Shown piece by piece: positions 15,016 to 44,352 of a DNA stretch of 53,537 bases. Positions within the stretch are counted from its first letter, which is position 1, and the number at the start of each line of letters is the position of its first letter. Origin of the DNA: Pseudomonadota bacterium (GTDB lineage: Bacteria > Pseudomonadota > Gammaproteobacteria > Burkholderiales > SG8-39); the NCBI GenBank assembly GCA_018241645.1, contig JAFEDL010000015.1, forward strand, positions 14,264 through 67,800. Direction: 5' to 3'. A program made the position numbers and the translations under genes. The notes under the pieces are model-generated. The model was not told the origin of the DNA. It saw only the letters and a program-made list of their open reading frames with translations, and did not search any database.

Positions 15016-15033
15016 GATCGATTGCCTCCTGTA

Positions 15034-16005: not shown

Positions 16006-16105
16006 TTTTCAGCTCCTGCGGCCCGGGACCGTCGGATTTGTTGTGTGCGATGCCGAAATGGCAGTCGATGCAGGTCATTCCCTTCGTCCTCAGCTCATGT
16101 TGCGC
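15995..16105 (-). pseudogene. In-frame fifth haem-motif tail after the amber stop of the NapC/CymA-like gene
   Basis: Directly after the TAG (16106-16108) of the tetrahaem cytochrome gene the same frame stays open for 36 codons to a TAA at 15995-15997. The peptide carries another CIDCH haem site followed by FGIAHN, near-identical in pattern to the last haem site of the gene itself (CIDCHKGIAH). The two copies sit exactly 99 bases (33 codons) apart, with an 18-base identical core. This is either a decayed tandem copy of the C-terminus or a readthrough extension giving a pentahaem protein. An internal ATG (16076-16078) could also start a 27-residue peptide. The tail overlaps the decahaem gene start by 11 bases and contains its ribosome site. 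Confidence 0.65.
16043..16076 (-). repeat. Direct repeat copy 1 of the CIDCH haem-site coding segment
   Basis: This segment shares 12- and 18-base identical blocks, equally spaced, with 16142-16175. The 99-base offset keeps both in the same reading frame, so a tandem duplication of the cytochrome C-terminus is the simplest origin. Confidence 0.7.
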
Positions 16106-16702
16106 CTACTCTTCGTCTTCCTTGTATTCCTTCGGCAGCAGGTGTGCGATGCCCTTGTGGCAGTCGATGCAGGTCTTGCCTTCCTTCTGCGCGTTGGCAT
16201 GGTTGCTCTTGGCGCGGGGCCGTTGCTTGTCGGTATTCATGCCGTCCCAGTGGTGGCAGTTGAAGCACTCGCGCGAGCCCGAGGCCTTCATCTGGTTCCA
16301 CTCGTTGGTCGCAAGCTCCATGCGCTTGGCCTCGAACTTCTCCTTGGTGTCGATGTGGCCCATCAGCTTGCCGTAGAGCTCGCCGCTGGCCTTGATCTTG
16401 CGGACGATCTTGTGGCTCCAGTCCTTGGGCACGTGGCAGTCCGAGCACACGGCGCGCACACCGGTGCGGTTGGAGTAGTGCACCGTCTGCTTGTACTCCT
16501 GGTACACGGTGTCGCGCATCTCGTGGCAGCCGATGCAGAACTCGAGCGTGTTGGTCGCCTCCATCGCCGTGTGGAACCCGCCCCAGAAGAGGATCCCGGC
16601 GATGAATCCGCCGCCCAGCAGCGTGAGCAACGAGTACTTCACGCTGGGGGCGCGCAATGTGCCCCACAATCGCTTGACCAGGCCGGGCTTGGAGCTTTCC
16701 AT
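16106..16702 (-). CDS. NapC/NirT/CymA-family tetrahaem cytochrome c (quinol dehydrogenase)
   Basis: A 198-residue inner-membrane-anchored cytochrome. One N-terminal helix (about 22-43, KYSLLTLLGGGFIAGILFWG) anchors it, and four haem sites follow: CIGCH, CSDCH, CFNCH and CIDCH. The family elements EFCIGCHEM, HYSNRTGVRAVCSDCHVP and HLLPKEY are present. It would exchange electrons between the quinone pool and periplasmic cytochromes, as CymA does in Mtr conduits and in the Mto cluster. The gene lies between the monohaem cytochrome and the decahaem gene in one operon. Its stop is an amber codon, and the frame continues into a fifth haem motif (15995-16105). An AAGAAAAT sequence precedes the ATG, a weak ribosome site. 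Confidence 0.93.
   Translation of the reverse strand: MESSKPGLVKRLWGTLRAPSVKYSLLTLLGGGFIAGILFWGGFHTAMEATNTLEFCIGCHEMRDTVYQEYKQTVHYSNRTGVRAVCSDCHVPKDWSHKIVRKIKASGELYGKLMGHIDTKEKFEAKRMELATNEWNQMKASGSRECFNCHHWDGMNTDKQRPRAKSNHANAQKEGKTCIDCHKGIAHLLPKEYKEDEE
16142..16175 (-). repeat. Direct repeat copy 2, inside the NapC/CymA-like gene
   Basis: This partner of 16043-16076 encodes the fourth haem site of the tetrahaem cytochrome. The identical blocks are 16142-16153 and 16158-16175. Confidence 0.7.
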
Positions 16703-16754
16703 TTTCTTGTCCAGTGATCAGAAGCCGTAGAGTTGCTGTGCGCCGATCCATTTC

Positions 16755-16781
16755 CGCCCCGGCAGCCTGCGGCCCGGGGCG
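16755..16781 (-). terminator. GC-rich hairpin between the monohaem cytochrome and CymA-like genes
   Basis: An 8-base perfect stem (16755-16762 pairing with 16774-16781) with an 11-base loop lies about 10 bases downstream of the monohaem cytochrome stop in the 89-base gap before the tetrahaem gene. No T-run follows, so it is more likely an attenuator or mRNA-stabilising hairpin that raises cytochrome c levels over the downstream genes than a full terminator. Confidence 0.35.
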
Positions 16782-16791
16782 CGACCGGTCG

Positions 16792-17154
16792 CTACTTCAG
16801 GGAAAGGATCCAGTCGATGAGGTTCTTGATCTCGTTCTGGTCCTTCGACTTCACGATCGGATGCTCTTCCTCGTGGCCATCATCGAACTTGGCTTTCTCG
16901 CCAGTGGTGATGTGCGTGAGCAGGCGCGCCTGGGCTTTCGCCGGGTCACCCGCCTTGCGGTACTTCTCCGCTGTCTCCTTCCATGCCGGGCCTTCCTTCT
17001 TCTTGTCTACCGCGTGGCACTTGAAGCAGTTGCTCTGGCGCGCGAGCGTGCGCGCGGCGTTTTCGTCGGCCGCCGTCGCCGGCGACGCAGCCGCCGCGAA
17101 CAGGATCGAGACTGCAGCTATCGGGAGAGCGATGCGAGAGAGTTTGTTTTTCAT
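16792..17154 (-). CDS. Small periplasmic monohaem class I cytochrome c (MtoD-like position)
   Basis: A 120-residue protein with a signal peptide (cleavage after about ASPATA, residue 28) and one haem site, CFKCH, near residue 43. The mature protein of about 92 residues has the short class I fold: an N-terminal helix with the haem site, a middle KYRKAGDPAKAQARL helix and a C-terminal NEIKNLIDWILSL helix. It contains no methionine after the start codon, so the usual Met axial ligand is absent. A histidine in GHEEEHPIVKS is the likely sixth ligand. It would shuttle electrons in the periplasm between the decahaem and inner-membrane cytochromes. It is the first gene of the minus-strand conduit operon, in the place mtoD holds in Fe(II)-oxidiser clusters. 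Confidence 0.88.
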   Translation of the reverse strand: MKNKLSRIALPIAAVSILFAAAASPATAADENAARTLARQSNCFKCHAVDKKKEGPAWKETAEKYRKAGDPAKAQARLLTHITTGEKAKFDDGHEEEHPIVKSKDQNEIKNLIDWILSLK

Positions 17155-20012: not shown

Positions 20013-20561
20013 TCAGTTTTTCGGCCGGATGGCGCTTTTTGGCCGGAAGGCCTTGAGGACCGATTCGTCGGTCTCGATGTACGGCCCGCCGATGAGGTCG
20101 ATGCAGTAGGGCACGGCGGCGAACACGCCGTCGAGCGTTTCCTTGATCGCCTTGGGCTGGCCCGGCAGGTTGATGATGAGCGCGCCCTTGCGGATCACCG
20201 CCACCTGGCGCGACAGGATCGCGGTCGGGACGTACTTGAGGCTCACCGCGCGCATCTGCTCGCCGAAGCCCGGCATGACCTTGTCGGCCACGGCCAGCGT
20301 GGCCTCGGGCGTGACGTCGCGCGGCGCCGGCCCCGTGCCGCCGGTGGTCAGCACGAGGTGGCAGCGGGCCGTGTCGACCAGTTCCTTCAGCGTGGCCTCG
20401 ATCAGCGGCTGCTCGTCCGGGATCAGGCGGGTTTCCATGCGCCAGGGCGAGCTGAGCGCGGCGCCGAACCAGTCCTTGAGGGCGGGAATCCCGGCATCTT
20501 CGTACACGCCCGAGGAGGCGCGGTCGCTGATCGATACCAGGCCGATGAGGAGTTCGTCCAT
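20013..20561 (-). CDS. mog: Molybdopterin adenylyltransferase Mog
   Basis: A 182-residue MogA/MoaB-like enzyme that adenylates molybdopterin before molybdenum insertion. Family motifs: LVSISDRASSGVYEDAGI at the N-terminus, VLTTGGTGPAPRDVTPEAT (the MoCF signature, about 89-107) and INLPGQPKAIKETLDGV near the C-terminus. ATG at 20561 is chosen because GGAG lies 5 bases before it. An in-frame GTG 6 bases upstream overlaps the darP stop and is also possible. Mog is needed for the several molybdoenzymes in this window. The order darP-mog beside divergent pmbA is a common betaproteobacterial housekeeping arrangement. Confidence 0.94.
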   Translation of the reverse strand: MDELLIGLVSISDRASSGVYEDAGIPALKDWFGAALSSPWRMETRLIPDEQPLIEATLKELVDTARCHLVLTTGGTGPAPRDVTPEATLAVADKVMPGFGEQMRAVSLKYVPTAILSRQVAVIRKGALIINLPGQPKAIKETLDGVFAAVPYCIDLIGGPYIETDESVLKAFRPKSAIRPKN

Positions 20562-20563
20562 GT

Positions 20564-21040
20564 TCACTCCGCGTCGCGGATGACCTTGAAGATTTCGCGA
20601 AAGGATTTCGGCGGGCGGCCCTCGGCGGCTTCCTTGCGCGCGTTGCGGATCAGGTTGCGCAGGGCCTGCAGGTCCACGCCCGGGTGCCTGGCGGCGAACT
20701 CGGTGAGCGCGGCGTCGTCGGCGATCAGCCGCTCGCGCAGCCTTTCCATGCCGTGCTGGCGCGCGACCTCCGCCTTCGACTGCCCGTTCCAGGCATCGAG
20801 GCGCTCCTGGATCGGCGCCGGGTCGACGTCGCGCATCAGCTTGCCTATGTACTGCATCTGCCGGCGGCGCCCCTCGTGCGCAGTGATGCGCTGGGCCTCG
20901 CGGATCGCCTCGCGCAGCGCCTCAGGCAGGTCCATGCCGGCGAGCCGCTCCTTCGAGAGCTCGACGAGCTCCGCGCCGAGCTTCTGCAGCGCGTGGCTCT
21001 GCTGCTTTTTCCGGGTCTTGCTGAGGATTTCGTTGTCCAT
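20564..21040 (-). CDS. darP: DarP/YjgA ribosome biogenesis factor (DUF615)
   Basis: A 158-residue charged, helical protein of the DUF615 family that associates with the 50S ribosomal subunit during late assembly. Recognisable blocks are MDNEILSKTRKKQQSHALQ, LGAELVELSKERLAGMDLP, EGRRRQMQYIGKLMRDVD and a C-terminal LRNLIRNARKEAAEGRPP. ATG at 21040 is preferred. An in-frame extension to 21064 would overlap the divergent pmbA start and adds 8 residues not typical of the family. The gap to pmbA is only 22 bases, so the two divergent promoters must lie partly within the coding regions. Confidence 0.93.
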   Translation of the reverse strand: MDNEILSKTRKKQQSHALQKLGAELVELSKERLAGMDLPEALREAIREAQRITAHEGRRRQMQYIGKLMRDVDPAPIQERLDAWNGQSKAEVARQHGMERLRERLIADDAALTEFAARHPGVDLQALRNLIRNARKEAAEGRPPKSFREIFKVIRDAE

Positions 21041-26472: not shown

Positions 26473-27357
26473 ATGAAAGCCGCTCCCTTCGAATACACCA
26501 GGGTTTCCACGCTGGCCGAGGCCTGCGAACTGCTCTCCGAGCATGGCGGCGACGCCAAGCTCATCGCCGGCGGACAGAGCCTCGTCCCGATGATGGCCAT
26601 GCGCCTCGCCCGGCCCGCCTGGCTGGTCGACATCAACCGGCTCGAGGAATTGAAGCACGTCGAGCTGCGCGGCGACGCGCTGGTGGTTGGCGCTGCCGTG
26701 CGCCAGTGCGTGATCGAACGCAATGCCGACGCCGTGCGCAGCCTGCCGCTGATGAACCGCGCGCTCAAGTGGGTCGGCCACGTGCAGACCCGCAACCGCG
26801 GCACGGTGGGCGGCTCCGTCGTGCATGCCGACCCGTCCGCCGAAATCCCGCTGGTGGCCTGCGTGCTCGACGCGACGCTGGTGCTGCAGGACACCTCGGG
26901 CCGGAGCGAGGTCGCGGCCCGCGAGTTCTTCTTTGCTCCGATGGTGACCGCGATCGCGCCGGAGCAGTGCCTCGCCGAGATCCGCTTCCCGGTGTGGGAT
27001 GCGCCGCGCGTGGGGTGCTCGTTCGAGGAGGTCAGCATCCGCCACGGCGACTTCGCGCTGGTGTCGGCCTGCGCGCAGGTCGCGCTCGACGCCGACGGCA
27101 AATGCGTCCGGGCCGCGCTGGGCATCGGCGGCGCCTCGCCGTTCCCGCATGCGCTGCCCGAAATCGGCGCGATGCTTGAAGGCAAGGTGCTCGACGACAT
27201 GCTGATCGAGGATGCGGCAGTGGCGGTGGCCGGCCTGATCGACCCCGACGGCGACCTGCACGCGACGGCCGAATACCGCAGGTTCCTGGCGCGCATGCTG
27301 GCCATGCGCGTGCTGAAAGCCGCCGCGGAAGACGCGGCCGGAAAGGGCGCCAAATGA
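26473..27357 (+). CDS. Xanthine-dehydrogenase-family FAD-binding subunit (CoxM-like)
   Basis: A 294-residue flavoprotein subunit of a three-part molybdenum hydroxylase. The two FAD-contact motifs are present: AGGQSLVPMMAMRL (32-45) and TRNRGTVGGSVVHADPSAE (106-124). The C-terminal FAD domain ends with the usual DGDLHATAEYRRFLARML segment. It would receive electrons from the iron-sulfur subunit and pass them to an acceptor such as quinone. ATG at 26473 is 10 bases downstream of a GATAAT box (26458-26463), which hints at a very short leader. The gene order M-S-L is that of aerobic CO-dehydrogenase clusters, and the stop overlaps the next start by 4 bases. Confidence 0.93.
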   Translation: MKAAPFEYTRVSTLAEACELLSEHGGDAKLIAGGQSLVPMMAMRLARPAWLVDINRLEELKHVELRGDALVVGAAVRQCVIERNADAVRSLPLMNRALKWVGHVQTRNRGTVGGSVVHADPSAEIPLVACVLDATLVLQDTSGRSEVAAREFFFAPMVTAIAPEQCLAEIRFPVWDAPRVGCSFEEVSIRHGDFALVSACAQVALDADGKCVRAALGIGGASPFPHALPEIGAMLEGKVLDDMLIEDAAVAVAGLIDPDGDLHATAEYRRFLARMLAMRVLKAAAEDAAGKGAK

Positions 27358-27845
27358 GCGAAAAACTGTATCCGGTGTCGATCACGGTCAATGGCAAGGC
27401 GCATGCGGCCGAGGTGCCCTCGCGCCTCACGCTGGTCGACTTCCTGCGCGACACGCTGCGGCTCACCGGCACGCACGTGGGCTGCGAGCACGGCATCTGC
27501 GGCGCCTGCTCCGTGATCCTCGATGGCGCGCCCGTGCGCTCCTGCCTCATGTTCGCGGTGCAGCTCGACGGCTGCTCCGTGACGACGATCGAGGGGCTCG
27601 CGCGACCCGACGGCACCCCGAGCGTGCTGCAGGACGCGTTCTGCGAGGCCCACGGCCTGCAGTGCGGCTACTGCACGCCCGGCATGATCGTGGCCTCGCA
27701 CGCGCTGCTCGAATCCAACCCGCAGCCGAGCGAGGCCGAGATCCGCGACGCGATCGGCGGCAACCTGTGCCGCTGCACGGGATACCAGCAGATCGTCGAT
27801 GCCGTGCAGCTTGCGGCGGGCAACCTCGCGAAGGGTGCCAAATGA
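27354..27845 (+). CDS. Xanthine-dehydrogenase-family 2Fe-2S subunit (CoxS-like)
   Basis: A 163-residue subunit carrying two [2Fe-2S] centres. The plant-ferredoxin-type cluster uses Cys44, Cys49, Cys52 and Cys64 (GCEHGICGACSV...RSC), and the second, in the helical domain, Cys104, Cys107, Cys139 and Cys141 (QCGYCTPG and LCRCTGY). It passes electrons from the molybdenum site to FAD. The length is normal. It overlaps the FAD gene upstream and the large-subunit gene downstream by ATGA junctions, so the three subunits are translationally coupled in equal amounts. Confidence 0.95.
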   Translation: MSEKLYPVSITVNGKAHAAEVPSRLTLVDFLRDTLRLTGTHVGCEHGICGACSVILDGAPVRSCLMFAVQLDGCSVTTIEGLARPDGTPSVLQDAFCEAHGLQCGYCTPGMIVASHALLESNPQPSEAEIRDAIGGNLCRCTGYQQIVDAVQLAAGNLAKGAK

Positions 27846-30238
27846 GCGCGCAGCCGGGCAACTACCGTTACATCGGCACCAGGCGCCGGACCAAGGAAGA
27901 CCCGCGGTTCGTCACCGGCCGCGGCCACTACGTGGCGGACATCGCGCTGCCCGGCATGAAGCACGTCGCTCTGGTCACGAGCCCCCACGCATCGGCGCGC
28001 ATCAAGGCGATCCGCACGGACAAGGCGCTGGCGCTGCCCGGCGTGCACTACGCGCTGACCGGCGAGGAGCTCTGCGCCAACGTGGACCCGCTGTATGTGG
28101 GCGTCGACGCGCCCAAGGTCGCACGCTATCCGCTCGCGCGCGGCGTAGTGCGCTATGCGGGCGAATGGGTGGTGGCCGTGGTGGCAGACTCGCGTGCGCT
28201 GGCCGAGGACGCGGCCGAACGCATCGAGATCGACTACGAGCCGACCGACTACATCCTCGACCCGGAGAAGGCGATCCTGCCCGGTGCGGTGCTCGTGCAC
28301 CCGGACCACGGCAGCAACGTGCTGTACCGGCGCACCTTCACCTGGGGCCCGGTAGAAGCCGATTTCGCCAAGGCGCAGCACAAGCTCGCCTTCCGTGCCC
28401 GCTGGGGCCGCAGCGCGACCGTGCCGATCGAGACCTTCGGAATCGCCGCGCAATGGGACCCGGGCACCGGGCTGCTCGACGTCTGGGCTTCGATCCAGAT
28501 GCCCAAGTACCCGGACCAGCTGGCCCGCGCGCTGCGCCTGCCCGGCAACGCGGTGCGCGTGCACTTCGACGTGGACGTGGGCGGCAGCTACGGCGTGAAG
28601 CGCGGCATCAAGCACACGGTGCTGGTCGGCTACCTCGCGAAGAAGCTGGGCATGCCGGTGCGCTTCATCGAGGACCGCCTCGAGAACATGCGTGGCGGCG
28701 ACATGCACGGTCCCGACCGCATCTTCGACATGCAGGTCGCGTTCGACACCGACGGCACCATCCACTCGCTCAAGATCCGGGCCCTGGACGACGTGGGCGC
28801 CTATGCGGGCCGCTCGCCGCTGCAGCTCGGCAAGCCCGTGGGCGCGATCGTCGGGCCGTACCGCATCACCAGCGTCGAGTACGAGCCGATCTCGGTGCTG
28901 ACCAACAAGACCGCGCAGGAGGCCGTGCGCGGCTTCGGCCAGTCGCCGACCAACTACGCGCTGGAAACCGCGATCGACCGTGTCGCGCGCCACCTCGGCA
29001 TGGACCGGGTGGAGTTGCGCAGGAAGAACTTCATCACCCGGGACCAGTTCCCGTACCTGATCCCCAGCGGCTCGACCTACGACAGCGGCGATTACCACAC
29101 GGTCCTCGACAAGGCGTTGCGCGCGGCCGATTTCCCCGCGCTGGTCGCCGAGCGCGACGCGGCCCGCAAGGCGGGGCGCCTGGCCGGCGTGGGCATCGCC
29201 ACCTGCCTCGAGCCTTCGGGCGGCAACTCGGCGTTCGAGCCCCTGTTCAACCCGAAGAACGAGACCACGACCTGGATGGATTCGTGCCTGGTGCGCGTCG
29301 ACATCTCCGGCGCTGTCACCGGCGTCATGAACACCTCGACCTCGGGCCAGGGCCACGAGACGCTGGTGGCGACCGTCCTCGGCGAGATCCTCGAGCGCGA
29401 CCCCGACACGATCCGCGTGGTGCACGCCGATTCGCTCAACGCCCTGCCCTCGAACAGCCCGGTGGGCAGCCGGATGGCGATCATGCTCGGCGGCGCCGCG
29501 GCCGGCGCGGCGAAGAAGGTCAAGGCGGCGCTGATGGCGATCGCGGCGCACAACCTCGGCGTCGCACAGGAATCCCTCGAGTATCGCGACGGCAGCATCT
29601 CCGCCAAGGGCGACGCCAAGAAGTCGCTGTCCTGGGACCAGCTCGTGGAGATCGCGCACCGCAAGTTCCACAAGCTGCCGCCGGGCCTGGAGCCCGGCCT
29701 GCAGGCCAAGTTCGTCTGGGAGGTGCCCACCGGCGGCGGCCTGCCCACGGCGGACGGGCGCATCCAGATGTACCCGTGCTACTCGTTCGAGGCGCACCTC
29801 GTGCTGGTCGAGATCGACCCGGCCACCGCGCAGCCGAAGATCAGGCGCTACCTGTGCGGCCACGACTGCGGCACGATGATCAACCCGGACATCGTGCACG
29901 GCATGACCTACGGGGGCATCGCGCACGGCATCGGGGCGGCGCTGTACGAGAAATTCGCGTTCAGCGACAACGGGCAACTCGCCAGCCAGACCTTCATGGA
30001 TTACCTTATGCCCAGCGCGCTGGAGGTGCCGGGGATCGACATCGTCGACCACTGCACGCCGTCGCCGCTGACCGAGTTCGGGCAGAAGGGCTCGGGGGAG
30101 GCCGGGTATCTCGGCGCCCCCGCGGCGATCGCGAGTGCGATCAACGACGCCCTCGCGCCCCTCGGGGCATCGATCGACGAGTTGCCTATGACGCCGCTCG
30201 CGATCTGGACACAACTACAAGGAGGCAAGACCCAATGA
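27842..30238 (+). CDS. Molybdenum hydroxylase large subunit (CoxL/XDH family), not a canonical CO dehydrogenase
   Basis: A 798-residue molybdopterin-cytosine-dinucleotide subunit. The N-terminal domain (RRRTKEDPRFVTGRGHYVAD) is followed by the Mo-binding domain with FDVDVGGSYGVKRG (242-255) and the catalytic Glu, about residue 753, in KGSGEAGYLGAPAAI. At the active-site loop form I CO dehydrogenases have AYRCSFR and form II AYRGAGR; here residues 361-367 read AVRGFGQ. The S-selenyl/copper-binding cysteine is therefore absent, and CO oxidation is unlikely. The neighbouring decarboxylase-like amidohydrolase, ring oxygenase and CoA genes suggest hydroxylation of an aromatic or N-heterocyclic acid, but the substrate is unknown. 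It is cytoplasmic, with no Tat signal. Confidence 0.92.
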   Translation: MSAQPGNYRYIGTRRRTKEDPRFVTGRGHYVADIALPGMKHVALVTSPHASARIKAIRTDKALALPGVHYALTGEELCANVDPLYVGVDAPKVARYPLARGVVRYAGEWVVAVVADSRALAEDAAERIEIDYEPTDYILDPEKAILPGAVLVHPDHGSNVLYRRTFTWGPVEADFAKAQHKLAFRARWGRSATVPIETFGIAAQWDPGTGLLDVWASIQMPKYPDQLARALRLPGNAVRVHFDVDVGGSYGVKRGIKHTVLVGYLAKKLGMPVRFIEDRLENMRGGDMHGPDRIFDMQVAFDTDGTIHSLKIRALDDVGAYAGRSPLQLGKPVGAIVGPYRITSVEYEPISVLTNKTAQEAVRGFGQSPTNYALETAIDRVARHLGMDRVELRRKNFITRDQFPYLIPSGSTYDSGDYHTVLDKALRAADFPALVAERDAARKAGRLAGVGIATCLEPSGGNSAFEPLFNPKNETTTWMDSCLVRVDISGAVTGVMNTSTSGQGHETLVATVLGEILERDPDTIRVVHADSLNALPSNSPVGSRMAIMLGGAAAGAAKKVKAALMAIAAHNLGVAQESLEYRDGSISAKGDAKKSLSWDQLVEIAHRKFHKLPPGLEPGLQAKFVWEVPTGGGLPTADGRIQMYPCYSFEAHLVLVEIDPATAQPKIRRYLCGHDCGTMINPDIVHGMTYGGIAHGIGAALYEKFAFSDNGQLASQTFMDYLMPSALEVPGIDIVDHCTPSPLTEFGQKGSGEAGYLGAPAAIASAINDALAPLGASIDELPMTPLAIWTQLQGGKTQ

Positions 30239-34140: not shown

Positions 34141-34641
34141 TCAGAGCGGGAACACCATCAGCACGTCAATGCAGCGCGAGTCGAGGATCACGCGGCGCTC
34201 CCTGAACCTGGGCTGGCCGCCCTCGAACACTATGCGGTCGAGGTACTTGCCGAGCGCGAACAGTTCCGTCGCACCGCTCTCCATCGTCCGGTAGACGCTG
34301 AAGTTGGAGCGCGCGGCGATGGTGCCGTCCGGCGCGGGCCGCAGGTCGGGCCGCCCGAGGATGTGGCAGTGGGTGTGCGGCTCGAACACGTTGGCGGTCT
34401 TCAGCGCGAGCACGCGGTCCTCCATCATGCCGCGCCCTTCGCACAGCATGATGCCGATGGGATAGCCGGCCTCGAAGTTCTCGCGCGTGGTCACCTGGTA
34501 GACCGCGTCCTGCGTGAAGAACCCGGTCCAGTCGTCGATCAGGCCGTCGTCGAGGCGGTGGGCGTAGTCGGCGAGGAAATTCGCCACGCGGAACCAGGTG
34601 GCCGAATCGACCTGCGCCGCGTCCTTCAGTTGCGCCGCCAT
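34141..34641 (-). CDS. Aromatic-ring-hydroxylating dioxygenase beta subunit
   Basis: A 166-residue NTF2/SnoaL-fold small subunit of a Rieske oxygenase. The sequence shows ANFLADYAHRLDDGLIDDW at the N-terminus, RGMMEDRVLALKTANVFEPH, and the C-terminal RERRVILDSRCIDVLMVFPL typical of these beta subunits. It has a structural role in the alpha3beta3 complex. It is the second gene of a two-gene minus-strand operon, 1 base after the alpha-subunit stop. No ferredoxin or reductase gene follows, so electrons must come from components elsewhere. Confidence 0.9.
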   Translation of the reverse strand: MAAQLKDAAQVDSATWFRVANFLADYAHRLDDGLIDDWTGFFTQDAVYQVTTRENFEAGYPIGIMLCEGRGMMEDRVLALKTANVFEPHTHCHILGRPDLRPAPDGTIAARSNFSVYRTMESGATELFALGKYLDRIVFEGGQPRFRERRVILDSRCIDVLMVFPL

Positions 34642-34642
34642 C

Positions 34643-35893
34643 TCAGTTGAACCCCATGATGTTGCGGTAGCCGTGCCAGAACCCGCGCACCGAAGCTTCG
34701 GTGGCGCGCGAGGACTCGTTCGATTCGGCCACCTTGCCGCCCATCTCGATGAAGGCCTCCTCGTCCGGGCTGCCGTGCGTGCCGCGCTGCACGAACTCGT
34801 TGATGCAGCCGTCCTCCAGGGACACGAGGCCCGCGGCGCCGGTCAGGTTGCCCTGCATCACGCGCATCCGCTGCTGGGCCGCGTCGTCGCGCTCGTAGCC
34901 GAGGAACACCCAGTAGAGCTCGGTCTTGTCGACGCCGCGCGGCACGAAGTAGCGCACCGCGAGCGAGTTCAGCGTGAAATGCACCACCAGCGTCGGGAAC
35001 ACGGTCTGGATGCTGTGCGTGATGCCGTCGTCGAACTCGTCCCAGGCGCGCAGCAGCTCCGGCCCGGCGAGCTGCGACTGGTACTGCCCGGCGTGCACGG
35101 TCTCGTACTCCTTCTCGGCCTGCAGCGTGGCGCGCTTGGTGTAGCTGATGTGGTGCCACTTCTTGTCCGACAGGATGATGCCGCCGTCCATGTCGAGGCG
35201 GTTGACCTTGAAGGTGGTGTAGAAGGTGTGCAGCAATGTCGCGTGGTACGAGTCGCGCACGTTCTCGGCGTACAGCTTCCAGTTGTTGTGGATCATCTGG
35301 CTGTGCACGCCGAGGACCTTGAGCGGCCGGCCGAGGTTGCGCGCGATGAATTTCGCCATCGGCGCGCCGAGGTAGTCCTCCAGCGGCTCGGTCTCCTCCG
35401 AAAACGTCCCGAACACTAGGCCGCAGAAGGTCGCCACGCGCAGGGGCTGCAGGCGGTGCTTCGAGGGATCGAAGTCCTCGGGCATGCCCCCCTTGCCCTT
35501 CAGGCCGTTGCGGAAGGCCACCGACTGGAGCTTCCCGTCGAGGCTGTAGTTCCACGCGTGGTAGACGCAGGTCAGCGACTCGCGGTTCTCCTTCTGCTTC
35601 AGGCACACCAGGGCGCCCTTGTGGGCGCAGCGGTTGACCATGGCGTGGAGCTTGCCGTCCTGGTCGCGCGTAACCACCACCGGCGTCTCGCCCACCCAGG
35701 TGGTGCGCACGTCGCCGGGCCTGGCCACGTCGGCTTCCATGCACAGGAAGTTCCAGATCGGGCCGCGGAAGATCCTTTCCTGCTCCAGGGCATAGATCTC
35801 GGCGTCCGAGAACACGCGGAACGGCACGCGGGCAACGCCGCCTTCGGGCCAGGCGAGCGGCTCGCTGAGGGAGGACGCGGTGGTCGGGTTCAT
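34643..35893 (-). CDS. Rieske (2Fe-2S) aromatic-ring-hydroxylating dioxygenase alpha subunit
   Basis: A 416-residue catalytic subunit. The Rieske cluster ligands are Cys89 and His91 (NRCAHKGALV) with Cys109 and His112 (LTCVYHAWNYS). The mononuclear iron site is seen as NVRDSYHATLLHTFY (211-225), with His217 and His222 and the bridging Asp214. The enzyme adds O2 to an aromatic ring or demethylates or deaminates it; the substrate class cannot be told from sequence. The ATG at 35893 has a GGAG ribosome site and faces the divergent LysR gene 93 bases away, a layout typical of a LysR-controlled catabolic operon. Confidence 0.94.
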   Translation of the reverse strand: MNPTTASSLSEPLAWPEGGVARVPFRVFSDAEIYALEQERIFRGPIWNFLCMEADVARPGDVRTTWVGETPVVVTRDQDGKLHAMVNRCAHKGALVCLKQKENRESLTCVYHAWNYSLDGKLQSVAFRNGLKGKGGMPEDFDPSKHRLQPLRVATFCGLVFGTFSEETEPLEDYLGAPMAKFIARNLGRPLKVLGVHSQMIHNNWKLYAENVRDSYHATLLHTFYTTFKVNRLDMDGGIILSDKKWHHISYTKRATLQAEKEYETVHAGQYQSQLAGPELLRAWDEFDDGITHSIQTVFPTLVVHFTLNSLAVRYFVPRGVDKTELYWVFLGYERDDAAQQRMRVMQGNLTGAAGLVSLEDGCINEFVQRGTHGSPDEEAFIEMGGKVAESNESSRATEASVRGFWHGYRNIMGFN

Positions 35894-35986: not shown

Positions 35987-36967
35987 ATGCACAACCTCGA
36001 CCTGAAGCTGCTCGCGGCCTTCCTCGCGGTGTTCGACACCCGCAGCGTGGGGCAGGCCGCGCTGCGCCTGCGCATGAGCCAGCCGGGCCTGTCCACTGCG
36101 CTGGGCCGCCTGCGGCGCATCCTGCAGGATCCGCTGTTCGTGAAGACGCCGCGCGGCATGGAGCCCACCACCCGGGCGCGCGCGCTTTACGAGCCGGTGC
36201 GCGGCATCCTGGAGGCGGTCGAATCGGGCCTGTTCGTGAAGCCCGAATTCGACCCGGCCACCTCGACGCGCGAATTCCGCCTCGCGTTGTCCGACATCGG
36301 CGAGGGGATCTACCTGCCGCTGGCGCTGCAGGGCATCGCGGCCGCCGCGCCCGGGGTGACGCTGCGCTCGGTCTCGCTGCCGCCCCGCCAGCTCGAGGAG
36401 GCCATGGACTCCGGGAAGGTGGACCTTGCCGCCGGGTACTTTCCCGACATCCGCACCGGCGAGTACCTGCACCGCCGCGTGGGGCTGCATTCGTTCGCCT
36501 GCATCATGCGCAGCGGCCATCCGCTGGCCGGCGCCCGGCTCACCATGAAGCAGTTCACCGCGCTGCGCCACGTGGTCATCGAGGCCGGCGGGCGCAGCCA
36601 GGAGGTGCTGGAGAAGTTCTTCCGCAGCCGGCGCATCCGGCGGACCGTGGTGCTGCACACCCCGCACTTCATGAGCGTGCCGGTGATCGTGGCCAGCACC
36701 GACGTGGTGGCCATCGTGCCGCAGGCGCTGGCCGATTTCATCACCACCCAGCGCGGCCTGACCCAGGTGCCGCTACCCTTCGTGCCGCCTACGTTCCAGG
36801 TGAACCTCCACTGGCACCGCAGCGTCAACAACGACCCGGGCAACAAATGGCTGCGCGACCTGCTGTTTGCCAGCATCCCGGTGCTGCAGACGCGCGGCTA
36901 CGACCGCAACGGCCGGCCGCAGCGGCGCGCGCGCGGGGCTATTCCGGCTGAACCCCGGCCGCTTTGA
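35987..36967 (+). CDS. LysR-family transcriptional regulator
   Basis: A 326-residue LysR regulator. The N-terminal winged helix reads LDLKLLAAFLAVFDTRSVGQAALRL split by MSQPGLSTALGRLRRILQDPLF, with the family's SQPxxS recognition helix at about 28-40. An effector-binding domain of two Rossmann-like lobes follows. ATG at 35987 is the start that gives the standard N-terminus. Being divergent from the Rieske oxygenase operon, it is the likely activator of that operon in response to a pathway substrate. Its 3' end overlaps the convergent TctC gene by 29 bases. The C-terminus after about residue 305 is Arg-rich and may be a non-conserved tail. Confidence 0.94.
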   Translation: MHNLDLKLLAAFLAVFDTRSVGQAALRLRMSQPGLSTALGRLRRILQDPLFVKTPRGMEPTTRARALYEPVRGILEAVESGLFVKPEFDPATSTREFRLALSDIGEGIYLPLALQGIAAAAPGVTLRSVSLPPRQLEEAMDSGKVDLAAGYFPDIRTGEYLHRRVGLHSFACIMRSGHPLAGARLTMKQFTALRHVVIEAGGRSQEVLEKFFRSRRIRRTVVLHTPHFMSVPVIVASTDVVAIVPQALADFITTQRGLTQVPLPFVPPTFQVNLHWHRSVNNDPGNKWLRDLLFASIPVLQTRGYDRNGRPQRRARGAIPAEPRPL

Positions 36968-37925
36968 CCATCTCGCCGATGTGCTCCACGTCGTCGCGGA
37001 TCGTCGCCGCGGTTTCCGCCGGCGTGCTGGCGACGAGCTCCAGGCTGAGCGAGTCGATGTGCTTTTCCGTGAAGTCGGGGCGCTTCGCGACCGCGGTCAC
37101 GTCCTGGTAGATCCGCTCGACCAGCTTCGGGTCCGCGCCGCCCGGGGCGAACAGGCCGAACCAGATGATGGCCTTCGCGTAGGGAAACCCGCCTTCGGTC
37201 GCGGTCTGCACATCGGGGAAGCGCTTCGCGCGGTTCGGCCCGGTGATCGCTATGGCCCGCAGGCGGCCGCCCTTCACCATCGCGCCCGTCGCCGCGGGGC
37301 TGCCGATCGACAGCTGCACCTCCCCGGCGACCACGGCCTGGGTAGAGGGCGCGATGCCCTTGTAAGGCACGTGCAGGAACTGAAGGCCCTCGCGCCTGGC
37401 CATCGTCTCGAACACCAGCTGGGAGTGCGAGCCTACCCCGTAGGAACTGTAGGCGACCTTGCCGGGCGAGCGGCGCACGAGCTCCACCATTTCGCGCATC
37501 GTGTTCGCGGGGAACGAAGGGTGCACGATGATGAAGTTGCCGGAGCGCGCGACGATGGTGACCGGGGCGAGGCTCTTGTCCGGGTCGTAGGGCAGCTTCT
37601 TGAACAGGAACCGGTTGCCGACCACGGTCGGGTCGATGGTGAACAGCAGGGTGTGCCCGTCGGGCGCGGACGCGGCCACCCGTTCGGTGCCGATGATCGA
37701 ACTGGCGCCGCCGATGTTCTCCACCACCACGGGTTGCTTCCAGACCGGGCCGAGCTCGTTGGCCAGCGCCCGCGCAAGCACGTCGGTGCTGCCGCCGGCC
37801 GGGTAGGGCACGATGATGCGCACCGGCTTGGACGGGAAGGGCGCTTGCTGCGCCAGCGCCGGGGGCGAGGCGTGAAGCGCAAGCGCGGCAAGCAGCGCCG
37901 TGGCGGCGGTCCTGAAAACGTTCAT
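36939..37925 (-). CDS. TctC/Bug-type periplasmic substrate-binding protein
   Basis: A 328-residue Bug-family protein with a signal peptide (MNVFRTAATALLAALALHA, cleavage near ALAQ, residue 26). Family elements are FPSKPVRIIVPYPAGGSTDV, PVVVENIGGASSIIG, PYDPDKSLAPV and VPYKGIAPSTQAVVAGEV. It binds an organic anion in the periplasm; no TctA or TctB partner is encoded here. It is the only one of the five TctC-type genes on the minus strand. It lies 64 bases downstream of the NrfC-NrfD fusion start region's operon end (37990), with its own start at 37925, and is convergent with the LysR gene. Confidence 0.94.
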   Translation of the reverse strand: MNVFRTAATALLAALALHASPPALAQQAPFPSKPVRIIVPYPAGGSTDVLARALANELGPVWKQPVVVENIGGASSIIGTERVAASAPDGHTLLFTIDPTVVGNRFLFKKLPYDPDKSLAPVTIVARSGNFIIVHPSFPANTMREMVELVRRSPGKVAYSSYGVGSHSQLVFETMARREGLQFLHVPYKGIAPSTQAVVAGEVQLSIGSPAATGAMVKGGRLRAIAITGPNRAKRFPDVQTATEGGFPYAKAIIWFGLFAPGGADPKLVERIYQDVTAVAKRPDFTEKHIDSLSLELVASTPAETAATIRDDVEHIGEMVKAAGVQPE

Positions 37926-37989: not shown

Positions 37990-39633
37990 TCAGGGCAAGG
38001 CGAATCGCTCCGGCGCGGCCCGCTTGCCGGAGCCGCGCTGCGGCTGCATCGGGATGGCAAAGCCCTGCTGGTGGCAGGCCCGGGTGATCACGACGAATTT
38101 CCACAGCGCGCCGCCGATGACTGCGCCGGCGCCCGCCAGCGCGGCGAACGGCTGCGCGAGGGGGGCGACCGCGAGGCAGAGCAGGTACATCGTCAGCGGG
38201 ACGGCGTGCCCGGTCGCATGGATCCACGGCGAAGCCGCGGCGAGGTCCAGGCGCGCGAGTGGTCCGATGCCGGCCGCCTTTGCGCTGTCCACATAGCAGC
38301 GCCATGCCCAGGTATTGATGATCACGAGCAGCAATCCCGCCGGGGCGAGGACGATGACCGGCGCCACCTGCATGGTTGCGGAGAGGGAGAGGATGGCGAG
38401 GAGCCCGAGGCCTTCGGCGAGGCCGCTCGCGATCACCATGGCGGGGATCAGCGGCGCGCGCCACGCCGGGATTCCCTTGGACGCATAGAGGATGCGCGCC
38501 TGGCAGAGCAGGAACCCCGCCGCGGCCAGCGCCAGCAGGGCCAGGGCTTCGTGCAGGTACTGCGGCCACGCGTAGCTCACCGCCAGGGCCGGGTAGATCA
38601 CGGCCACGCACCAGGTTTCCCGCGTCATCCACGACGATTGCGGCCGCAGCAGCACGAACAGGAACCGGAGCTTGCGCCCGATCTTGAGGAACACGAAGAA
38701 CAGGCCCACCGCCATCACCGCCGCCGCGACGGCCGTGATCCTGCGCAGGCCTTCCGGCGCGAGCAGGCCCACCGCATGGGCGAACCATGCGGCGACCATC
38801 AGGCCCGAGGCCATGCCGCCGAGGATGAAGTTCATCGCCGCCCGGTAGTCCCAGAACGCCTGGCGCTTGCCCACCAGCGGGTTGGTCGGGTCCGACTGGC
38901 GCTCGTCCTCGAGGTCGTCCGGGTCGGCCGCGCGCCCCGGCGTCGACCGGGGCACCTCGTAGAGGTACTTGATCTGCGGGTCGTTGCCGAGCTCGGCGTG
39001 CATCTGGAACGAGCGGCTGTCTTTCGCAAGTATCGACACGGTGCTCGCCGGATCGGCGAAGTCGCCGAAGCGGATCGCCTGGGTGATGCACGAGGTCGCG
39101 CAGGCCGGCGTGACCTCGGGGTCCACGCCGGGCACGCGGCCGGTGACCGCGGCCGTGTCGATGCGCTCCACGCAGAACGTGCACTTGTTGGCCACGCCGT
39201 AGCGGTCCTCGTGGGTGGTCTTCTTTTCCTGCGCGGTCTGGCCGCCGGCGTAGTAGCCCTCTTTTTCGTGCACGATGGTGCGCGCCTGGTAGGGGCAGGC
39301 CACCGCGCACGAAGCGCAGCCGATGCACAGGTCGTAGTCCATCGTCACCAGGCCGTCGGCGCGCTGGCGCGTGGCGCCGGTCGGGCAGACCGGCACGCAG
39401 GAGGGCTCGGCGCAGTGCTGGCAGCCGGTCACGAGGAACAGGCGCTCCACGTCGGGAAAGCGTCCCTGCTCCACGTCCAGCACGCGGCGCCACTGCACAC
39501 CGGGCGGCGTGTCGTTGGAGTGCTTGCAGGCGATGGTGCAGGTCTGGCAGCCGACGCAGCGGTTGAGGTCCACGATCATGCCGTAGCGCTTGGCGGGCAT
39601 GGAGCCGTCGGGCTTGAGGTTGTTGAGGTTCAT
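37990..39633 (-). CDS. Fused NrfC-like 4x[4Fe-4S] protein and NrfD/DmsC-like membrane quinone module
   Basis: A 547-residue fusion. Residues about 15-200 are an NrfC/PhsB ferredoxin with four cluster motifs: CVGCQTCTIACKHS, CQHCAEPSCVPVCP, CIGCASCAVACP, and CTFC... joined with CATSC. After a polar linker (about 225-265) comes a membrane domain of some eight helices, from NFILGGMASGLMVAAWFAHA to GAGAVIGGALWKFVVI, of the NrfD/DmsC type that binds quinone. It would connect the molybdoenzyme encoded just upstream to the quinone pool. These two units are usually separate genes. The ATG (39631-39633) overlaps the molybdoenzyme stop by 4 bases. The ferredoxin part has no Tat signal, so it should face the cytoplasm. 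Confidence 0.88.
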   Translation of the reverse strand: MNLNNLKPDGSMPAKRYGMIVDLNRCVGCQTCTIACKHSNDTPPGVQWRRVLDVEQGRFPDVERLFLVTGCQHCAEPSCVPVCPTGATRQRADGLVTMDYDLCIGCASCAVACPYQARTIVHEKEGYYAGGQTAQEKKTTHEDRYGVANKCTFCVERIDTAAVTGRVPGVDPEVTPACATSCITQAIRFGDFADPASTVSILAKDSRSFQMHAELGNDPQIKYLYEVPRSTPGRAADPDDLEDERQSDPTNPLVGKRQAFWDYRAAMNFILGGMASGLMVAAWFAHAVGLLAPEGLRRITAVAAAVMAVGLFFVFLKIGRKLRFLFVLLRPQSSWMTRETWCVAVIYPALAVSYAWPQYLHEALALLALAAAGFLLCQARILYASKGIPAWRAPLIPAMVIASGLAEGLGLLAILSLSATMQVAPVIVLAPAGLLLVIINTWAWRCYVDSAKAAGIGPLARLDLAAASPWIHATGHAVPLTMYLLCLAVAPLAQPFAALAGAGAVIGGALWKFVVITRACHQQGFAIPMQPQRGSGKRAAPERFALP

Positions 39634-42374
39634 GCGCGCGCCTTTTTCACCGAGACGCGCATGATGTCCGCGCCGCTGCCGGTGGCGTCGGTCAGCGACA
39701 CGGCGAGGTCGGTGAGCGAGTTCAGGCTCGCCACGCCGAAATCCTTGGCCACGGGCGTGGCCCAGTGGTCGAACTGGCCGATCAGCAGCACGGTGTCGGG
39801 CCGGATGCCCTCGCGCAGCGTGGCGCGGCCGCGCGTGATGCCGCTGGCCGATTCGAGCACGATCGCGTCGCCGTCGGCAATGCCGAGCTTCTTCGCGGTG
39901 GCGCGGTTGATGATCACGCCGTCGTGGCCGGAGACGTTCTGCGCCACCTCGCGGATCAGCGGCAGTCCCACGTTGGCGCCCCACGCGTACTGCATGCTGC
40001 GCGAAGTCAGCGCCCAGAGCGGGAAATCCTTGGGGTCGCGCCCCAGTTCGGCGGCGTAGTTCTCCCAGATGTCCGGGAAGGCGAGATACCCGGGCAGCGC
40101 CTCGTACTCCTTCAGCTGCGGGTTCCACCACTCGATGCCGATTTCGTGCAGGCGCCGCTCGAGCTGCTCGCCGTGGCGCTTGATGCGCTCCTGGTAGGGC
40201 ATCTCGAACCGCAGGCCCTGTTCCTTCATGCGCGGGTACAGGTACCACTCCAGCTGCGAAAACGGCCGGATCATGAAGCCCTTCTCGCTGAACCAGTCGA
40301 TGCCGTGGATTTCGGTGCCGCCCGAGACCTCGTGGCTGGCGGCCTTCGCCACCGCGTCCCAGATCTCCTTGGCGCCGTGCGGCACTTCGGGATCCAGCGC
40401 GTAGTCGTAGCCCTCGCCGCGCAGCGCCATCGCCGCCGAGCCGCGGTTGATCGCCTCGTTGTATTTCTTCAGCAAGCCGGTGCGCCTGGCCAGTTCGGTG
40501 GAGATGTCGGTCATGTCCATGCAGTCGCCGGCAGGCTTGACCGCCGGCTGGCGCAGCGCCCAGCCCTGGTGGTGCCAGAACTGCTCGGCCGAGCCGGTGC
40601 CGCCGATGCGCGACATCTGCCAGCTTTCGAGGTCGGTCGCCTCCGGCAGGATCACGTCGGCCATCCAGTTCGATTCGTCCTGGGTGTAGCCGAACGCGAG
40701 CGTGAACGGGAACTCGGCGATGCGCTTGGCCACCTCGGGGGCGTTCCACGAAGAGATCGCCGGGTTGGTGCGGTAGCAGATCCACATGTCGGGCAGCGTC
40801 TGGCGCGGCCAGGGCTTGGGCGCCTTGTGCTGGAACAGCCACGGCAGGTGGGCGGGGCCCAGCGCCGCGGACCAGGGCGAGTTCGCCGCCAGCGGCACCA
40901 GCATCTTGTACGCGTTGCGGATGTGGGGCTTCGACTGCCACTCGTCCTTCTTCGTGGAATTGAACGGGTAGGTCATGAACCCGTCCTCGCCGTGCTTGGC
41001 GCTCTTCAGGCGGTTGTCCGCCGGGCGGTTCAGGCGCACCTTGGTGCCCATCGTGCCTCCGGGCACCTCCAGCGCGCCGACGAGGCACGCGAGCATCGTG
41101 CGACCCCACATGGCCTGGTAGCCGCCCCAGCCGTTGTTCACGCCCTTGCCGAGCATCACGCCCACGGGGCGGTGGGGCAGGGTCACGCCTTCGATCGTGA
41201 TCGTGGCGCCGATCTTCGCGTGCGCGACGAACTCGTCGGCCACGCGGCGGATGGTTTCGACCGGCACGTCGCACTCGGCCGCCGCCCACTCGGGCGTGTA
41301 CTGGCGGATGTGCTCGCGCATGAGCTCGAAGGACGGCTTGGCTTCGGCCTGCGCGTGCACCCAGCGTTCGCCGTCCGGGCCTTCCTCGTAGCCGGAGACC
41401 GTGTACGCGCCTTCCATGGCCGCATCCGCGATCGCGCCGTCGTAGGGCTTGGCCTTGGCGTCGGCGAGGTCCCAGATCAGGGGCTTGCCGCTCGCGCCGT
41501 CGCGCATGAAATAGCCGTGCGGGCCCACCAGGTAGGGCGAATTGGTGTCTTCCTGCAGGAACCTCACGTCGCAGACTTCGCGCCAGTTGCGCTCCAGCAC
41601 GATGCGGTGGATCAGCGCGTACATGAAGGCCGGGTCGGTCTTGGGCTTGATCGGCACCCATTCGCCCGACAGCGCGCCGGTCACCGACAGGTGCGGCTCG
41701 ACCTGCACGCGCTTCAGGCCGCGCGAGCGCGCGTCCGCCTGGCGCCAGACGCCCGAGACCCCGCCCGAGGCCTCGAGGTTGCTGCCGAAGTTGATGACGT
41801 AATCGCAGTTGAGCGAATCCGTGACCACCGTGAAGGCGCGGTGCCAGAACTCGCCGTAGAGGTGTTCCGAGTGGAAGCACTTCGCGCCCTGGCCGGAGCC
41901 GTAGCCCTGGTCGATCACGCCCCAGGCCGACAGGAAGGCCGGGAAGGTGCCCATGTAGCGGGTCGGCGTGCCGCCGCCGCCGAAGCTCGCGGCCAGGCGC
42001 GGATAGCCTTCCTCGTCGCGCATGCCCTTGGCCTGGATCTCGTTCAACTTGCCGGCCACGATGTCGAGCGCCTCGTCCCACGAGACCGGCACGAAGCCCG
42101 GGTCGTGCTCCTTGCCCTTCTTCGGGTTGGTGCGCTTGAGCGGCTGCGTGATCCGGTTCGGGTTGTAGGTTTTCTGTACCAGGCCGTAGGCCTTCACGCA
42201 GACGCGCCCGCCCGCGGGATGCACGCCCTCGAGGTCGAAGTTCGGCGTCATGCGCAGCGCCACGCCGTCCTTCACCTCGACCTTGAACAGGTCCGGGCCG
42301 CACACGCACTGGTTGCAGTACAGCGGCACCATCTTGCTGCCGGCCGCGGCGGTCCTGGGGGCGTCTGCGCTCAT
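39630..42374 (-). CDS. DMSO-reductase-family molybdopterin oxidoreductase (Tat-less, function unknown)
   Basis: A 914-residue bis-MGD enzyme. The N-terminus has cysteines at 20, 23, 25 and 59 (YCNQCVCGP and GRVCVKAYGL), the place of the [4Fe-4S] cluster, but the CxxCxC spacing differs from the usual CxxCxxxC. VSWDEALDIVAGKL (97-110) and NRITQPLKRTNP are standard for the family. Cys166 (GAKCFHSEH) is the likely Mo ligand. The C-terminal domain contains ALTSRSMQYAWGANVG and INRATAKKLGIADGDAIVLES. No twin-arginine signal is present, so the enzyme should stay in the cytoplasm. It resembles PhsA/ArrA-type enzymes in build, but I cannot assign a substrate. The neighbours are acyl-CoA genes. Confidence 0.87.
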   Translation of the reverse strand: MSADAPRTAAAGSKMVPLYCNQCVCGPDLFKVEVKDGVALRMTPNFDLEGVHPAGGRVCVKAYGLVQKTYNPNRITQPLKRTNPKKGKEHDPGFVPVSWDEALDIVAGKLNEIQAKGMRDEEGYPRLAASFGGGGTPTRYMGTFPAFLSAWGVIDQGYGSGQGAKCFHSEHLYGEFWHRAFTVVTDSLNCDYVINFGSNLEASGGVSGVWRQADARSRGLKRVQVEPHLSVTGALSGEWVPIKPKTDPAFMYALIHRIVLERNWREVCDVRFLQEDTNSPYLVGPHGYFMRDGASGKPLIWDLADAKAKPYDGAIADAAMEGAYTVSGYEEGPDGERWVHAQAEAKPSFELMREHIRQYTPEWAAAECDVPVETIRRVADEFVAHAKIGATITIEGVTLPHRPVGVMLGKGVNNGWGGYQAMWGRTMLACLVGALEVPGGTMGTKVRLNRPADNRLKSAKHGEDGFMTYPFNSTKKDEWQSKPHIRNAYKMLVPLAANSPWSAALGPAHLPWLFQHKAPKPWPRQTLPDMWICYRTNPAISSWNAPEVAKRIAEFPFTLAFGYTQDESNWMADVILPEATDLESWQMSRIGGTGSAEQFWHHQGWALRQPAVKPAGDCMDMTDISTELARRTGLLKKYNEAINRGSAAMALRGEGYDYALDPEVPHGAKEIWDAVAKAASHEVSGGTEIHGIDWFSEKGFMIRPFSQLEWYLYPRMKEQGLRFEMPYQERIKRHGEQLERRLHEIGIEWWNPQLKEYEALPGYLAFPDIWENYAAELGRDPKDFPLWALTSRSMQYAWGANVGLPLIREVAQNVSGHDGVIINRATAKKLGIADGDAIVLESASGITRGRATLREGIRPDTVLLIGQFDHWATPVAKDFGVASLNSLTDLAVSLTDATGSGADIMRVSVKKARA

Positions 42375-42395: not shown

Positions 42396-42809
42396 CTACT
42401 TGCCAAGCGCGGCGACCTTGGCGGCCTTGGCGTCGAGCCTTTCCTTCTGCTTGGCCAGGTCGACGATGAAGCGGGTGTGCTTGGCCTTGCCGACGAGGTC
42501 CAGCACGTCGCGCACCTCGACCTCGAAGTTCACGCGGCGGCCCTCGATCCCGGTGACCGTCGCGGTGACGTCCACCCACATGTCGCGCAGCGTCGGGCCG
42601 AGGTGGTCGATCTCCACGCGCGCGCCCACCGAGTTCTCCTCGGGGGAAAGGTACTCGCCAAGGAAGTCCTTGCAGGTGATCTCGACGTCGCGGACCATCA
42701 TCGGCGTGGCGTACACGCGCAGCGCCTCGCCCATGAATCCGATGGTGCGGTCGGTGTCGACCACCACGCGCACGGTTTTCTTCATGCCTGCCGTCAGTCC
42801 GGGTTTCAT
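42396..42809 (-). CDS. FlK-type hotdog acyl-CoA thioesterase
   Basis: A 137-residue single hotdog domain. The catalytic residues described for fluoroacetyl-CoA thioesterase FlK (Thr42, Glu50, His76) have counterparts with identical spacing: Thr35 (YATPMMV), Glu43 (DVEIT) and His69 (VEIDHLGPT). SVGARVEIDHLGPT and VNFEVEVRD match the family. It would hydrolyse a short acyl-CoA, perhaps to release CoA from a dead-end or toxic thioester. ATG at 42809 follows the ligase stop by 10 bases; the longer in-frame start is not supported by a ribosome site. A Lys/Ala-rich tail ends the protein. It lies 21 bases before the molybdoenzyme gene in the same operon. Confidence 0.87.
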   Translation of the reverse strand: MKPGLTAGMKKTVRVVVDTDRTIGFMGEALRVYATPMMVRDVEITCKDFLGEYLSPEENSVGARVEIDHLGPTLRDMWVDVTATVTGIEGRRVNFEVEVRDVLDLVGKAKHTRFIVDLAKQKERLDAKAAKVAALGK

Positions 42810-42819
42810 GCCGTCTCTC

Positions 42820-44352
<1,533 letters not shown>

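Follow-up and report, generated by a model that had tools for sequence, protein, structure and literature searches.

An atypical Tat-less molybdoenzyme from a Burkholderiales genome is a probable PadBCD-like arylacetyl-CoA:quinone oxidoreductase

Which reaction is catalyzed by a molybdoenzyme of the DMSO reductase family that carries no export signal and is encoded among genes for acyl-CoA metabolism? The question is raised by a locus in a 53,537-nucleotide stretch of a Burkholderiales genome (contig JAFEDL010000015.1), referred to here, at its full length, as the window. An initial annotation had described the enzyme and proposed that it faces the cytoplasm, is linked to quinone and acts on a CoA-bound substrate. 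Codon-usage gene calls defined a same-strand gene set between 44352 and 36939 that codes for a ligase, a thioesterase, the molybdoenzyme, an FeS-anchor fusion and a Bug-type receptor. The genes and sites discussed below are the following.

42820..44352, minus strand: AMP-forming acyl-CoA ligase, 510 aa (AMP-binding domains; NF004837 470.6 bits, cut-off 476)
42396..42785, minus strand: FlK-type acyl-CoA thioesterase, 129 aa (PF22636 FlK 104 bits, gene call)
39630..42374, minus strand: catalytic molybdopterin subunit, PadB-like, 914 aa, P0002 (translation, Pfam, AlphaFold2 model)
42291..42317, minus strand: atypical FS0 cluster motif CNQCVCGPD, codons 20-28, with Cys20, Cys23, Pro27 and Asp28 (conservation, profile alignment)
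42198..42200, minus strand: fourth FS0 cysteine, codon 59, followed by Lys61, which occupies the site of the FS0-Mo relay lysine (conservation, PsrA/ArrA alignment)
41877..41879, minus strand: probable Mo-ligand cysteine, codon 166 (conservation, PadB/PsrA/ArrA alignment)
37990..39633, minus strand: fused FeS and NrfD/DmsC-like membrane-anchor subunit, 547 aa (Fer4 domains, weak NrfD match)
36939..37925, minus strand: TTT-type (Bug/TctC-like) periplasmic solute receptor (gene call; family assigned by eye)

The open reading frame of the catalytic subunit starts at an ATG, and translation and gene calls agree with the 914 residues described initially. Its Pfam matches are solely PF00384 (Molybdopterin) and PF01568 (Molydop_binding), and the Molybdop_Fe4S4 domain was absent in the Pfam search; together with the Foldseek results, these matches identify the DMSO reductase (MopB) superfamily fold with its molybdopterin- and MGD-binding domains. 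The AlphaFold2 model has a pLDDT of 83.6, with local values below 50 in the Mo-ligand loop (residues 160-172) and averaging 66 at residues 21-30. The frame is open over 921 amino acids, merely 7 codons beyond the ATG, and therefore the window copy has no room for a twin-arginine (Tat) signal. None of 80 homologues showed an RR motif with a hydrophobic segment behind it, and in 28 of them fewer than 35 residues fit before Cys20. The lack of a Tat signal had been noted at the outset, and no homologue among the 80 had an upstream Tat start that would contradict it.

The thioesterase gene ends 21 bases 5′ of the catalytic gene and the FeS-anchor gene shares 4 bases with the 3′ end of the catalytic gene. 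Because of this gap and overlap, the genes look like one transcription unit. The receptor, for which no NCBIfam match was found, is possibly the last product of the operon and the uptake receptor for the acid. Gene calls and domains confirmed the acyl-CoA ligase and acyl-CoA thioesterase seen earlier as neighbors, as well as an FeS/NrfD-like module; the proposed NrfC/NrfD parts, however, form one fused protein. Its FeS half contains 16 cysteines, with curated scores of the DsrO/QrcC/ArrB type, and the other half contains at least 7 predicted membrane segments. Thus, a PadBCD-type gene set, with molybdopterin, FeS and anchor components encoded together, is present at 37990-42374, the last two being fused. 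The curated scores assigned the ligase to the fatty-acyl/PRK06187 group and not to PaaK. No 2-oxoacid oxidoreductase gene was found within the window.

The cysteines at positions 20, 23, 25, 59 and 166 had been singled out in the initial annotation, the first four as a CxxCxC-type cluster site. All are present in the protein. An alignment of 83 family members shows no substitution of Cys20, Cys23, Gly26, Pro27, Cys59 or Cys166; Asp28 occurs in 82, with Glu in the remaining one. Position 25, on the other hand, is Cys in 11 members and Ala in 67, so that CxxCxC is not a family feature and Cys25 was rejected as a cluster ligand. Since Cys25 varies while Gly26, Pro27 and Asp28 are conserved, the motif of the site is CxxCxxGPD...C. 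Members identified subsequently, with identities as low as 53%, have kept it, and remoter relatives, including the PadB that adjoins PadEFGHI, have CxxCxxxC (in one case CxxCx5C). In the profile alignment Pro27 is paired with the FS0 cysteine that comes third in PsrA (2vpw), and Cys59 with the CPR of PsrA and ArrA. The normally invariant third FS0 cysteine is, in this enzyme family, swapped for a Pro-Asp motif. Position 61 is Lys or Arg in all 83 sequences (Arg in 4), and it may be equivalent to Lys44 of formate dehydrogenase, a known FS0-Mo lysine (PMC12176258). The conserved Cys20, Cys23, Cys59 and Lys/Arg61, together with the PsrA alignment, make it likely that FS0 is retained. The cluster is probably held by the three cysteines, with Asp28 as the fourth ligand or with no further ligand from the protein; judging from conservation, Asp28 would be the best candidate for the fourth position. 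The proposal of Cys166 as the likely Mo ligand agrees with its alignment to the Cys of canonical PadB and to those of SLC in PsrA and SVC in ArrA.

The nearest named system is PadBCD, the phenylacetyl-CoA:acceptor oxidoreductase of Thauera aromatica, Azoarcus evansii and Aromatoleum aromaticum. Both systems include a Tat-less molybdopterin subunit that carries a Cys where the Mo ligand is placed, an FeS subunit and a DmsC/NrfD-type anchor. In genomes the genes of both are associated with CoA ligase genes and, for the family of the window enzyme at a part of its loci, with genes for 2-oxoacid oxidoreductases. They differ in the FS0 motif, CxxCxxGPD in the family of the window enzyme and CxxCxxxC in PadB, and in the fused FeS-anchor subunit, the ligase unlike PaaK and the FlK-type thioesterase in the operon that characterize the window clade. 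In the genome searches the strongest outside relative was at first a PadB encoded beside PadI in a PadE-F-G-H-I-B-C-D cluster (genome G132), with 297 bits and 32% identity; ArrA reached 116 bits in phmmer, a different program. Identity to the canonical PadB group is about 30% (28-32%), and the N-terminus of PadB likewise has no Tat signal. In a quick tree the family of the window enzyme was monophyletic (100% SH-aLRT), with the window clade (100) and the clade of a paralogue from the same genome (99) inside it, and PadB and its relatives formed a separate group (96). Several long outgroup branches were joined in this tree, and therefore only the monophyly and the separation from the PadB group were taken from it. 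The window enzyme thus lies outside the PadB sequence clade and does not have the CxxCxxxC motif. A plasmid search for a named close relative gave matches of only 23-27%, and the Sporomusa and Azospirillum enzymes among them fall outside the family. No paper on the window-enzyme clade was found in the open PadB/PadBCD literature, which is itself thin, and this absence is no proof. A PadB-like annotation may already have been given to family members in some genomes, such as Rfer_3093/3094 of Rhodoferax ferrireducens (PMC2755013).

The reaction class is better settled by genomic context than by sequence. Gene neighborhoods were compared at 76 loci, 19 of the window clade and 57 of its sister clade; the loci are related by descent, and the neighbor counts are lower bounds because contigs of metagenome-assembled genomes (MAGs) are often cut. 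FlK lies beside the enzyme in 57 of these loci (17/19 and 40/57, respectively), a CoA ligase is nearby in 43 and a 2-oxoacid oxidoreductase of Ior, Kor or Pad-like type in 21. At 50% identity or more, the window-type ligase was found in 12 of the 19 window-clade loci and the Bug-type receptor in 6. No FlK homologue was seen in a canonical PadB cluster (L108). In a Rhodospirillales MAG (L042), one strand codes in sequence for an FlK thioesterase, a catalytic subunit 59% identical to the window enzyme, FeS and anchor subunits, PadE-F-G-H-I and a PaaK-type ligase. PadE, PadG, PadH and PadI exceed the NCBIfam equivalog cut-offs, and the ligase scores 637 vs 646 for PaaK. This is a full phenylacetate-to-benzoyl-CoA operon with a relative of the window enzyme in the place of PadB. 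Two further genomes, G083 and G329, have a true PadEFGHI cluster without PadB and a member of the family elsewhere, G329 with an additional 28% relative on another contig. When 399 genomes of the order were compared, 7 of the 18 that carry the family had PadI-like subunits vs 8 of the 381 that do not (Fisher p 5.5e-7, kinship ignored). The family is present in about 5% of genomes sampled from the order and about 1% of those from the phylum. Multiple copies were also observed: L021 (7192-12766) has the catalytic subunit twice in tandem, each about 67% identical to that of the window, and L070 (3022-12718), from a Deltaproteobacteria/Myxococcota MAG, has a window-type enzyme side by side with a pair of PadB-type enzymes.

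The genome of the window has a second copy, 58% identical, on contig C44, located between LivKHMGF and genes for FeS, anchor and PaaK-type ligase proteins. The window copy belongs to the clade with a fused FeS-anchor subunit and a non-PaaK ligase, two features that tell it apart from the PaaK-linked clade of the C44 copy. Two copies in one genome suggest two substrates, phenylacetate for the C44 copy and a related arylacetate for the window copy; the arylacetyl substrate of the window clade probably differs from that of its PaaK-linked counterpart. The same genome has an IorA homologue on contig C150 and also BoxB, and only weak matches to the PadI family. A 2-oxo-acid route stays plausible for the window clade because IorA directly follows the enzyme in three of its loci (L015, L016 and L020).

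Taken together, the window enzyme is a cousin of PadBCD that departs from PadB proper in two sequence features; the proposal that it would work like PadBCD is well supported by the genomic evidence. We assign a probability of roughly 0.7 to the reading that it is a cytoplasm-facing, membrane-anchored arylacetyl-CoA:quinone oxidoreductase. The direct basis is sequence, conservation, fold, operon structure and the replacement of PadB in a full pad operon; from it we infer the reaction, the quinone as acceptor, the cluster ligation and an arylacetate other than phenylacetate. The orientation, quinone link and CoA-bound substrate proposed initially are supported by the absence of Tat signals, the co-located ligase and thioesterase, and the relatives in pad operons. 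In the known pathway, phenylacetyl-CoA is converted to phenylglyoxylyl-CoA, which is hydrolyzed to phenylglyoxylate and then yields benzoyl-CoA (PMC9765128, PMC5109826); this hydrolysis step explains a thioesterase in the operon. By the proposed mechanism, the ligase would activate an arylacetic acid, or an alpha-methylene acid similar to it, by forming the CoA ester, and a bis-MGD Mo site with Cys166 as metal ligand would oxidize the CH2 beside the thioester carbonyl with oxygen derived from water, giving arylglyoxylyl-CoA. Electrons would pass from Mo through FS0 and the four clusters of the FeS-anchor fusion and enter the quinone pool. Hydrolysis by the FlK-type thioesterase would then free the 2-oxo acid, which a 2-oxoacid:acceptor oxidoreductase of the Pad, Ior or Kor type would turn into aroyl-CoA. 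More tentatively, these proteins might constitute a distinct arylacetyl-CoA oxidoreductase family with an FS0 [4Fe-4S] cluster on three Cys and one Asp, in which the FlK protein is an arylglyoxylyl-CoA thioesterase and the product feeds both aerobic (box) and anaerobic routes.

The same chemistry could act on a substrate that is not an arylacetyl-CoA, for example an acyl-CoA that contains an activated CH2 and is alicyclic, heteroaromatic or derived from a steroid, and that would be oxidized to the 2-oxoacyl-CoA or merely hydroxylated. The fatty-acyl group of the ligase, the fusion and ligase type that set the window clade apart, the two copies in one genome and the SCP-x thiolase with a ChsH2-like OB protein close by would fit such a substrate. 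However, IorA, an oxidoreductase of the aryl-2-oxoacid type, is adjacent in three window-clade loci and the surroundings of the Mo ligand are near-identical in the window and PaaK-linked clades, which makes this alternative unlikely.

Far less probable is a hydroxylase or transhydroxylase of the pyrogallol transhydroxylase or resorcinol hydroxylase type, in which FS0 is missing and the N-terminal cysteines are vestigial. One cluster cysteine is indeed gone, and the Pfam search did not detect the Fe4S4 domain; yet three cysteines and Lys/Arg61 invariant in 83 sequences are unexpected for a vestige, the FeS protein is fused to a quinone-type anchor and the transhydroxylase (4v4c) obtained 52 bits vs 171 for ArrA in a profile search. 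Slightly less probable still is a Phs/Psr/Arr/Ttr-type enzyme that serves as a terminal reductase in respiration, with an external inorganic acceptor. ArrA (6cz7, Z 25.9) and PsrA (2vpw, Z 25.3) are among the nearest solved folds of the model, with a Foldseek match to ArrA of E 7e-43 and TM 0.71 on the target length, and the NrfD-type anchor is shared. The near-equal score of acetylene hydratase (Z 25.4) suggests that these matches reflect the superfamily fold only. ArrA and PsrA/PhsA share with the window enzyme the overall fold, a Cys in the place of the Mo ligand and an FeS partner, and PsrA also shares the NrfD-type partner, but they have four FS0 cysteines, act outside the cytoplasm and reduce inorganic acceptors. 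The lack of Tat signals and the constant ligase and thioesterase neighbors argue against this role, as do scores far under the curated NCBIfam cut-offs: PhsA 157/694, ArrA 121/1600, TtrA 51/1750, DmsA-YnfE 130/778 and QrcB 94/440 (type II, 94/985). On such scores the thiosulfate, polysulfide, arsenate, tetrathionate, DMSO/selenate, nitrate, formate and type II subfamilies were rejected. The earlier statement that no characterized subfamily matches holds for the curated families, whereas the neighborhood is PadBCD-like. Ethylbenzene dehydrogenase (2ivf, Z 23.5) and other type II enzymes share the superfamily fold and perform a water-based oxidation of an activated CH2 in alkylaromatics; they are periplasmic and differ from the window enzyme in FS0 and Mo ligation.

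Other parts of the window were also inspected. A pair of Rieske dioxygenase genes adjoins the operon at 34141-35893, an arrangement found otherwise only in L007, L008 and L009; the products are related to AndAc/AndAd, with scores under the cut-off. The region 30280-53344 is a dense catabolic island that encodes at least 5 TTT/Bug-type receptors, an acyl-CoA dehydrogenase, another two CoA ligases and the thiolase together with its ChsH2-like OB protein. At 26473-30238 lie the genes of a molybdenum enzyme of a second kind, a CoxM-CoxS-CoxL-like hydroxylase of the xanthine oxidase family, followed by a Bug receptor, an FAD enzyme, an amidohydrolase and CoxG. The gene at 20013-20567, near several molybdenum enzymes, appears by eye to be MogA-like (molybdopterin adenylyltransferase). 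At 12754-17154, genes for an MtrB/PioB outer-membrane porin, a multihaem cytochrome, a NapC/NirT cytochrome and a cytochrome c lie in a row and look like an extracellular electron-transfer conduit.

With the PadBCD-like reading, a gene group of the DMSO reductase family without an assigned role gains a testable function, and arylacetate alpha-oxidation would extend to organisms without canonical PadB. The FlK-type protein becomes a candidate for the thioesterase that acts at the hydrolysis step in the arylacetate pathway, and the family has a cluster site, invariantly changed from Cys to Pro-Asp, at which ligation is testable by EPR.
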